From NCBI GenBank assembly GCA_002688325.1, contig NZCS01000006.1:1-46020 (forward strand): a stretch of DNA of 46,020 nt. Reading direction: 5' to 3'. The translations under genes were made by a program, and so were the position numbers. Below, piece by piece: positions 39,768 to 42,556 of the stretch. Source of the stretch: an archaeon (GTDB taxonomy: Archaea; Nanobdellota; Nanobdellia; SCGC-AAA011-G17; ARS1178). Every line of letters begins with the position of its first letter. Positions within the stretch are counted from its first letter, which is position 1. The notes beneath the pieces are model-generated. The model saw only the letters and a program-made list of their open reading frames with translations. It searched no databases and was not told the DNA's origin.

Positions 39768-41202
39768 ATGAAACAAAATCTAAAGAAACTTAACGAATAT
39801 GAATGGGAATTAGATAAATCAACAAGACCTGGAATGAATGTTAATGCAAAGATTATTGCGAATTCCAGTATTTTGAAAGCAATAGAAGATGATGCTGTAC
39901 AACAGCTAACTAACGTAGCTTGTCTGCCTGGTGTTATAGAACCTGTTATTGGGTTACCGGACATGCATTGGGGATATTTTAATAGATCCTATTAAGACCC
40001 TATATGGGCTACCGATGGGTGCTGTATCGGCATTTGATGAACAAGATGGAATTATATCTTCTGGTCTTTGTGGTTTTGACATAAACTGTGGAGTAAATTC
40101 AATAAGAACTAACTTAACCTACTCAGAAGTACAAACAAAAATAAAAGAATTAGTTTCAGAATTATTCAAAACAATTCCATGTGGTGTAGGATCAAAAGGA
40201 AAATTAAAATTAACAAAGTCAGAACTAGATGAAGTTTTAGTAAAAGGTGTAAACTGGGCTGTAAAAAACAACTACGGAACAAAAGAAGATATTAAAAATC
40301 TAGAAGAAAATGGTTGTATGAAAGGAGCAGATCCAAATAAAATTTCAGATCTAGCTAAAAAAAGAGGATTACAACAACTAGGAACATTAGGTGCAGGAAA
40401 TCATTTCTTAGAAATTCAAAAAGTTTCAGATATTTATGATAAGGAATTTTCAAACAAGCTAGGAATTAAAGATAAAGATCAAGTCTTATTAATGCTACAT
40501 TGTGGTTCAAGAGGTTTAGGACATCAAGTAGCATCAGATTATCTAAAATCTCAAGAAAAAGCAGTTAAAAAATATAATATAAAAATTCCAGACAAACAAC
40601 TCGTTGCAGCACCTGCACAATCAGAAGAAGGACAAGATTATTTTAAAGCAATGAAAGCAGCAGTTAATTATTCTTTCACTAATCGTATAGTTATGACTCA
40701 ATGGATAAGAGAAACTTTTGAAAAAGTCTTTAACAAAACTTGGCAAGAAATGGATATGAATACTGTGTGGGGTTTATGTCACAATGTTGTGAAACTAGAA
40801 GAACATACAATAGAAAATAAAAAACAAAAAGTATATGTTCATAGAAAAGGTGCAACAAGAGCCTTCCCAAATGAGCCAGTAATTGTAGCAGGAACAATGG
40901 GAACTGCATCTTACATCTGTAAAGGAACTAAAATAGCAATGGAAAAATCCTTTGGTTCATCAGTTCATGGAGCAGGAAGAGCAATGTCAAGAACTGCTGC
41001 AATTAAATCTTTTAGAGGAACAGAAATTCAAAAAGATATGGAAAAAAGAGGGATAATTGCAAAAGCAACAAATCCAAAAGTTTTAGCAGAAGAATTTGAA
41101 AAAGCATATAAAGATGTAAATGAAATTATAGAATCAGTTCATGGAGCAGGGATTTCTACTAAAGTAACTAAAGTTTTACCCATAGGAGTCCTTAAAGGAT
41201 AA
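39768..41202 (+). CDS. rtcB: RNA-splicing ligase RtcB, interrupted by a 28-nt BHB intron
   Basis: RtcB joins 2',3'-cyclic phosphate and 5'-OH RNA ends, such as tRNA exons after splicing endonuclease. Exon 1 (39768-39975) encodes up to LPDMHWG; without splicing it stops at 39995 after 75 aa. Exon 2 (40004-41202) continues GLPMGAVSAFD. Joined, they read LPDMHWGYGLPMG, the family sequence, in a 468-aa protein. The active site is intact: DINCGV (nucleophile region), GAGNHFLEIQ, MLHCGSRGLGHQV, and SVHGAGRAMSR (guanylylated His). There is no intein, although RtcB inteins are common. Archease is encoded at 42149-42556, with a homing endonuclease gene between. Confidence 0.92.
39976..40003 (+). other. 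BHB intron in rtcB
   Basis: The region folds as exon GGGG (39970-39973), bulge AT^A (39974-39976), stem TTTTAATAG (39977-39985), loop ATC, stem CTATTAAGA, then CCCT (39998-40001), bulge AT^A (40002-40004). The central helix GGGG/CCCT is 4 bp (one G-U) with 3-nt bulges on opposite strands, the standard splicing-endonuclease motif. Cutting after the second bulge base at both sites removes 28 nt and leaves CAT TGG GGA TAT GGG CTA, in frame. The outer helix is weak (relaxed hBH type). Small size and absence of an ORF fit an archaeal mRNA intron. Confidence 0.85.
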
Positions 41203-42073
41203 TTTTATTCTCTTCTTTCTTATTTAACAATCCTAATCTAATCATTTTCGCTACTTCGCTTTTCTTATGTATATTCAAAGTAAAATAAACTGTTCCAAAT
41301 CCATTTTTTCTTTTATAAGTTTTAGAATCTATCTTATACAAACTAAACAAATTTTTTGATAAATTAACAAGATTATTTTCTTTATTAGATACAATTCTAA
41401 CTGTATATGGCATGTTAACTTTAGCTTTTTCTTTCATTATTTTATTCACAACTTTTTTAATTTTATTTTTTGGAAATTCCCAAGTATAACTCATATAAGA
41501 CAATATATCTTTTTTCAATTTTTCTTTTTTATTTTTATGAAGAAACCCAATTTTTTTCTGGTATCTAATCAAATTTTCTTTTCCAAATATAAAAAGACGA
41601 TAAATATTTCTTTTTTTATTTTCTCTTATTTTATTTTTTATTCCTAAAATTTCAAGAGCACATCCAATTTGTCTTATTCCATCACAATTTATTGAATCCA
41701 AAGCTATTAATCTACTTTTTCTCTCTTTAGCTATAACCCATGCTTCACAATCAAAAAAAGCTCTCAACCAATATTTCAAATTTTCACAATCCATATTTGG
41801 TAAACTCCAATCTTTAGAATAAAAAGAATTAAATTTTTGAACTAATTGATAATATATTTCTTTAGAATTAACAACACACCTAGCATCTCTCAATTTTGGT
41901 AATTTTTTAAATTGTTTATTAAATTTTACATTAAAATCATTTAACAAAGTAAGATTTTGATTTCTAAAACCAACAACATAGTATTTATGTTTTTGAGTTT
42001 CTGGATTTCTTATAACATATCCATCACCACATAAATAACCATGAACTGCTGCAAGATTTTTATTAAATTCCAT
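41192..42073 (-). CDS. LAGLIDADG homing endonuclease (free-standing)
   Basis: 293 aa with two LAGLIDADG-type motifs: AAVHGYLCGDGYV (acid Asp17) and LRAFFDCEAWV (acid Glu). Lys/Asn-rich DNA-binding lobes and a shared second half (RIVSNKENNLVNLSKNLFSLYKIDS, VYFTLNIHKKSEVAKMIRL) fit a two-motif monomer. It lies tail to tail with rtcB, overlapping it by 11 nt, and 76 nt from the archease gene. It is not inside the intron or an intein. It may cleave an intronless rtcB and so promote spread of the intron; that is inference. Confidence 0.85.
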   Translation of the reverse strand: MEFNKNLAAVHGYLCGDGYVIRNPETQKHKYYVVGFRNQNLTLLNDFNVKFNKQFKKLPKLRDARCVVNSKEIYYQLVQKFNSFYSKDWSLPNMDCENLKYWLRAFFDCEAWVIAKERKSRLIALDSINCDGIRQIGCALEILGIKNKIRENKKRNIYRLFIFGKENLIRYQKKIGFLHKNKKEKLKKDILSYMSYTWEFPKNKIKKVVNKIMKEKAKVNMPYTVRIVSNKENNLVNLSKNLFSLYKIDSKTYKRKNGFGTVYFTLNIHKKSEVAKMIRLGLLNKKEENKIIL

Positions 42074-42148: not shown

Positions 42149-42556
42149 TTAAATATCCATAACAACCCTAACTTTCCAATTCTTTTTCTTCTCTAACTCA
42201 AATTTATAATAACTTATAGCTTTTACTACAGTTTCACCATTCTCTGGTTTTATCTCCTCTCCATAAACTTCTGCTTCTAATTTATTCTCACTTATTTTTA
42301 AAATCTTAAACTTAGAAAAAAACATTTCCTTAACATCAACCAAAGCAATCAACTCTTGTAACCAATTAAACATCAAATCTTTCAAATCTTCACCTTTTAC
42401 TTTTATTTTTACTTTCTTTTTATTTTTTACTTTCTTAACTCTACAAATTACATTAAATAAAGCTAAAGCACTATTTTCAAATAATTCTTTTTCATTTTTT
42501 CCATAAGCTTCAAACATTACATCTGAAGTCAAATCTTCTATAAACTTAAATTTCAT
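42149..42556 (-). CDS. Archease (RtcB cofactor)
   Basis: 135 aa. It starts KFKFIEDLTSDVMFEAYGKNEKELFENSALALF, the archease pattern, with FNWLQELIALVDVKEMFFSKF, VVKAISYYKFEL and the terminal WKVRVVMDI with the metal-binding Asp. It lets RtcB turn over many times and use other nucleotides. The usual His in DHTaD and KAvTyH is Leu and Tyr here. It is next to rtcB but convergent with it across the homing endonuclease gene. Confidence 0.9.
   Translation of the reverse strand: MKFKFIEDLTSDVMFEAYGKNEKELFENSALALFNVICRVKKVKNKKKVKIKVKGEDLKDLMFNWLQELIALVDVKEMFFSKFKILKISENKLEAEVYGEEIKPENGETVVKAISYYKFELEKKKNWKVRVVMDI

Follow-up and report, generated by a model that had tools for sequence, protein, structure and literature searches.

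A predicted bulge-helix-bulge intron in an archaeal gene for the RNA ligase RtcB and its recurrence in related genomes

The rtcB gene of an uncultivated archaeon is interrupted by a segment of 28 nt that very probably represents an archaeal pre-mRNA intron of the bulge-helix-bulge (BHB) type, which would be cut by the splicing endonuclease EndA and joined by RtcB. This reading, put forward in an earlier note on this DNA, is now strongly supported: similar inserts recur in 36 genomes, most junctions are fixed by the protein sequence, the central helix covaries, a relative of the same genus has an empty site, and the organism's own genome encodes EndA and RtcB and contains BHB tRNA introns. The analyzed window is a stretch of 46,020 nt on contig C6 of a 606-kb assembly (G000; 36 contigs, 72% complete), the nearest named relatives of which are Candidatus Woesearchaeota and Nanoarchaeia. 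Archaeal mRNA splicing is experimentally known for essentially one gene, cbf5 (PMC2738675). The earlier note knew of no described rtcB intron, and none appears in the literature found on rtcB, DPANN mRNA and archaeal pre-mRNA introns, which yielded only work on cbf5 and general reviews within a limited journal coverage. If the present reading holds, rtcB would be a second recurrent host gene for archaeal mRNA introns, located in an uncultivated lineage and encoding the enzyme that joins the exons.

The rtcB frame of the window is interrupted within the conserved HWGYG motif, between HWG and YG. The unspliced frame (39768-39995) leads to a product of 75 aa with the C-terminus HWGYFNRSY followed by a stop, the remaining part of RtcB being in a different frame. 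Excision of 39976-40003 generates a single protein of 468 aa that is colinear with Pyrococcus horikoshii (P. horikoshii) RtcB 1uc2 (E 5e-148), with a gap-free junction and retained metal-binding motifs. Both the interruption of HWGYGLPMG and the stub of 75 residues described in the earlier note are therefore present, and a protein-coding frame that is broken by an insert and mended by its excision corresponds to what is expected of a BHB pre-mRNA intron. In both exons, substitutions relative to related genes are biased to third positions. The features of the locus are as follows.

39768..39975, plus strand: rtcB exon 1, codons 1-69 and the first base of the Tyr codon of HWGYG (frame, colinearity with PhRtcB 1uc2, third-position bias)
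39970..39973, plus strand: 5' strand of the predicted central helix, GGGG, exonic, 4 bp
39974..39976, plus strand: 5' bulge ATA, predicted cut between AT and A
39976..40003, plus strand: predicted 28-nt BHB intron, cut after the second base of each 3-nt bulge (frame restoration, BHB geometry)
39977..39985, plus strand: 5' strand of the 9-bp inner stem
39989..39997, plus strand: 3' strand of the 9-bp inner stem
39993..39995, plus strand: TAA stop for ribosomes on unspliced mRNA (75-aa product)
39998..40001, plus strand: 3' strand of the predicted central helix, CCCT, intronic, covarying with the exon across genomes
40002..40004, plus strand: 3' bulge ATA, predicted cut between AT and A
40004..41202, plus strand: rtcB exon 2 including the stop, with the motifs DINCG, GAGNHF, HCGSRGLGH and HGAGR (PF01139 E 4.9e-144, 1uc2 alignment)
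41192..42073, minus strand: free-standing LAGLIDADG homing endonuclease gene (PF14528 E 5e-17), convergent with rtcB, 11-bp overlap
42149..42556, minus strand: archease (PF01951 E 3.8e-37), close to rtcB

The core elements that the earlier note had described, namely the helix GGGG/CCCT, the bulges ATA and ATA and the inner stem of 9 bp, were all located at these positions, giving a 4-bp central helix with 3-nt bulges on opposite strands. The inner stem includes one T-G pair and closes in the loop ATC, and the site is the only one on the plus strand of the 46 kb that combines a length of 28 with four central pairs and nine or more inner pairs. The cut after the second base of each bulge, also proposed in that note, does restore the frame and the family sequence, but the protein alone would allow five junctions, because an ATAT repeat permits the window junction to slide over five positions, one of which is selected by the BHB. 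The predicted motif is a relaxed BHB because its outer exon-exon helix is weak and partial, in contrast to the strict hBHBh' form with its outer and inner helices. In the minimum-energy fold of a 70-nt region, the 9-bp stem is kept and the central helix is replaced by exon-exon pairs, with -20.8 kcal/mol for the minimum versus -18.2 kcal/mol when the BHB is enforced. Free-energy folding alone was tried as a BHB detector and did not single out the motif; a lax BHB scan was likewise uninformative, discrimination being achieved only in scans tied to the protein junction. Since the folding minimum is not the BHB, the junction can slide and the exon-exon helix is weak, the case rests on comparison and not on folding.

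Searching the rtcB genes of relatives with the spliced protein (tblastn) revealed frames broken at two places, referred to as site A (HxGYG) and site B (GFDINCG). In a covariance model of site A, a match of 72 nt denotes an intron-free gene, while a match of approximately 100-105 nt (95 nt for the shortest intron) denotes an intron-bearing one. By this measure, 16 of the 90 order genomes with a model match carry a site-A insert, and 7 more genomes from the wider class and 13 more from a phylum-wide draw bring the number of genomes with an insert of similar size to 36, in addition to the named record JAHJBD010000137 (L077), in which the frame is broken at the same place. The first 34 introns, obtained from 27 genomes, are divided into 23 site-A and 11 site-B introns, both sites being occupied in seven genomes; their length is 23-33 nt and they contain no ORF. 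Gene callers will designate rtcB in intron-bearing genomes as frameshifted or truncated. The earlier note had pointed to related genomes as a check, and rtcB indeed exists there both with and without the insert. A second intact rtcB, which the note had considered to speak against splicing, was not found in the organism's own assembly, where a single rtcB was detected, the assembly being 72% complete so that an extra copy could be missing. Elsewhere, genome G056 contains two rtcB copies (C22:4326-4427 and C8:1135-1206), one with introns at both sites and the other without a site-A intron.

For each broken gene, all possible excisions were tried and the best protein-restoring ones were kept, ignoring RNA structure. 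The BHB cut, placed between the second and third bulge residues as in BHB introns generally, is within the protein-optimal set in 33 of the 34 introns, the remaining one being 3 score units off. The optimal excision is unique in 23 of these introns, and a slide of at least 3 nt is possible in only four. A strict BHB is present at 28 of the 34, compared with 0.05 expected at random positions, and at nine of ten introns found later, compared with 0.025 expected. Across 44 introns, 170 of 176 central-helix pairs form and 39 helices are complete, while partner shuffles reach at most 118 and 18, respectively. Within register A1, the central helix is complete in 24 of 25 introns (at most 19 in shuffles), with the covarying pairs GGGG/CCCT, AAGG/CCTT, CAGG/CCTG, TTGG/CCGA and AGGG/CCCT. 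At the site-B intron of G129, the protein-only score favored a junction one base off; the BHB junction results in the natural variant GYDINCG in place of GFDINCG.

Presence and absence of the introns vary even among close relatives: within a single genus, a 31-nt insert is present at CATTG^GGG in G015, and the site is empty in G090. On a tree of 61 RtcB proteins, constructed from the sequence downstream of both intron sites, intron A requires 15 changes and intron B 10; for intron A, supported branches yield 12 independent pairs whose members differ. The favored insertion contexts are GGAT^AYGG and GGAT^AYGA. How BHB introns spread is still unsettled, and repeated gain at two conserved motifs, beside inteins and a linked homing endonuclease, would provide a natural system for studying it.

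The components expected for processing are encoded in the organism's own genome. A single EndA of 189 aa carries both domains of the splicing endonuclease (PF01974 and PF02778); it is closest to the M. jannaschii enzyme 1a79 and to Nanoarchaeum 3iey_A and looks like a single alpha-type subunit. Enzymes with such a subunit are thought to prefer strict BHB motifs, which counts against the relaxed motif of the window. Archease, the gene for which is close to rtcB, is an activator of RtcB. A PF09414 RNA ligase was not found in the own assembly, which is 72% complete, so that another ligase could be missing. BHB tRNA introns are present in the same genome, for example in Lys(TTT) and Thr(GGT). In G000 (L046-L053), several tRNA genes have lengths of 103-122 nt and carry 37/38 introns (Lys, Trp, Leu, Ser); an apparent additional insert at another position occurs in tRNA-Lys and in one other tRNA (L048).

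Three other explanations of the broken frame were considered. One is that the insert reflects a pseudogene, a sequencing error or an artefact of metagenome assembly, for which the draft state of the genome, with its 36 contigs and incomplete recovery, could be cited. This reading is strongly disfavored and, in our judgment, highly improbable, given that the same architecture occurs with different sequence in 36 genomes, including the single-contig genome G031, in which the one rtcB match has two introns, and that both exons retain third-position bias. Moreover, endA was found in 95 of 102 order genomes and its matched domain is unbroken in all 95, from which it follows that the rtcB breaks are not general frameshift noise of metagenome-assembled genomes. 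It may also be proposed that two separate polypeptides, the 75-aa stub and a re-initiated C-terminal part of RtcB, cooperate without any splicing, and an ORF of 417 aa with an upstream TTG is compatible with this. Such a split would, however, cut the highly conserved HxGYG motif, and it offers no reason for the junctions to match BHB cuts, nor does it sit well with the stops within the introns. In all 14 introns of length 3n, which are partly related to each other and the first of which were spotted through broken frames, an in-frame stop is present, against a shuffled mean of 7.8, and 0.05% of shuffles reach 14. We consider cooperation of two polypeptides very improbable. The excess of stops is suggestive and recalls selection that would keep unspliced mRNA from being translated.

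Translational bypassing, in which the ribosome would leave one TAT, hop across the hairpin and land on the other, as happens in phage T4 gene 60, dispenses with RNA splicing altogether; in the window, the insert folds into a stable hairpin and the ATAT repeat at both ends would allow the peptidyl-tRNA to re-pair. Beyond the window this explanation loses its footing, since 23 of the 34 introns have one protein-optimal excision and only four can slide far enough, leaving no matching take-off and landing codon. It also leaves unexplained the conserved 4-bp exon-intron helix, the 3-nt bulges and the covariation, and the same anatomy is found in cbf5, for which splicing is established, so that bypassing, too, is given very little credence. 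A control search of cbf5 detected stops within the catalytic domain in some genomes, and in eight relatives the classic Asp codon was found to carry a BHB intron. In all eight genes, the frame is restored by an excision of 15 or 21 nt that falls on a BHB cut with four central pairs, the BHB-matching excision being single in seven genes and one of two in the eighth; the outer exon helix of these introns is strong, with 4-5 of 5 pairs.

The rtcB introns have several close counterparts among described systems. Like the crenarchaeal cbf5 intron, they have a protein-coding host, a BHB-like motif with the cut falling behind the second bulge residue, predicted cleavage by EndA, a location at a highly conserved codon, and sporadic gain and loss (PMC2738675). 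They differ from it in having an RNA ligase as host, two host motifs and several registers, a length of 23-33 nt combined with an inner stem that is strong and an exon-exon helix that is weak, and a host protein that is itself expected to join the exons. The majority of crenarchaeal cbf5 introns have been termed unconventional BHB (PMC2738675), and therefore the strict hBHBh' form does not define BHB pre-mRNA introns. Archaeal tRNA introns at 37/38, which are present in the own genome, share the BHB central helix and the cut rule, whereas their full 5-bp exon helix (the anticodon stem) and short inner part are the reverse of what is found in rtcB. A group I intron or another ribozyme intron was rejected, as no Rfam match to a catalytic RNA family was detected in the region up to E 0.1 and 28 nt is far too short; an intein was also rejected, the insert being 28 nt long, frame-shifting and stop-containing.

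Based on the known activities of these protein families, a sequence of events can be envisaged for the rtcB mRNA. The exonic GGGG, belonging to the codons of HW-G, would pair with CCCT at the intron's end, and the intron would close in its 9-bp stem; EndA would cleave each bulge between its second and third bases, with a 2',3'-cyclic phosphate and a 5'-OH as the resulting ends, and RtcB together with archease would join the exons, linking ...GAT to ATG... and restoring HWGYGLPMG. In the absence of splicing, ribosomes would be expected to halt at 39993-39995. RtcB made earlier would then be required for maturing the new RtcB message, a loop that could persist because cells inherit RtcB protein. 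As RtcB is the only ligase found, the rtcB mRNA should depend on it, and, from the known role of RtcB, the cell probably needs RtcB to make RtcB. Such a chicken-and-egg circuit would be testable in vitro with two purified proteins.

The LAGLIDADG gene beside rtcB suggests a possible means of spread. Homologues adjoin rtcB in six intron-A loci (the window and L077 counted), with a remnant in a seventh, and also in three intron-free loci. Members of this family directly adjoin rtcB in diverse relatives, upstream or downstream of it and in varied orientations (window, L172, L173, L160, L167, L077, L183, L202, L076). The association between the endonuclease and intron A has a Fisher p of 0.04 when the 91-aa remnant is included and 0.08 when it is not, and it is not significant on phylogenetically independent pairs. 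A role of the endonuclease as an intron mobilizer that cuts empty sites is accordingly speculative. A free-standing endonuclease gene beside the host of an ORF-less intron is known from group I introns in collaborative homing (F-CphI, PMC6083498); the rtcB intron differs in not being self-splicing and in its statistically weak association with the endonuclease. A broader scenario, in which rtcB introns gate the output of RtcB through RtcB and EndA activity and the free-standing LAGLIDADG protein partly spreads them by cleaving intron-free alleles, as collaborative homing of ORF-less BHB mini-introns, is rather doubtful.

Inteins occupy nearly the same ground as the site-B introns. They are found in the same gene at the conserved FDINCG site in several relatives, for example L162, L163, L166 and L183, and differ from the BHB introns of 23-33 nt without ORF in being removed as protein and in comprising hundreds of residues. 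The window's homing endonuclease shows no more than marginal similarity to the RtcB intein that was compared with it. G001, G012 and G053 each combine an intein at FDINCG with an RNA intron at HxGYG. Within the 606-kb genome G000, at least 17 over-threshold LAGLIDADG_3 matches are distributed over C28, C4, C20, C16, C33 and C18, and because they are often inside very long frames (many of 784-1837 aa), they suggest that this genome harbors many inteins.
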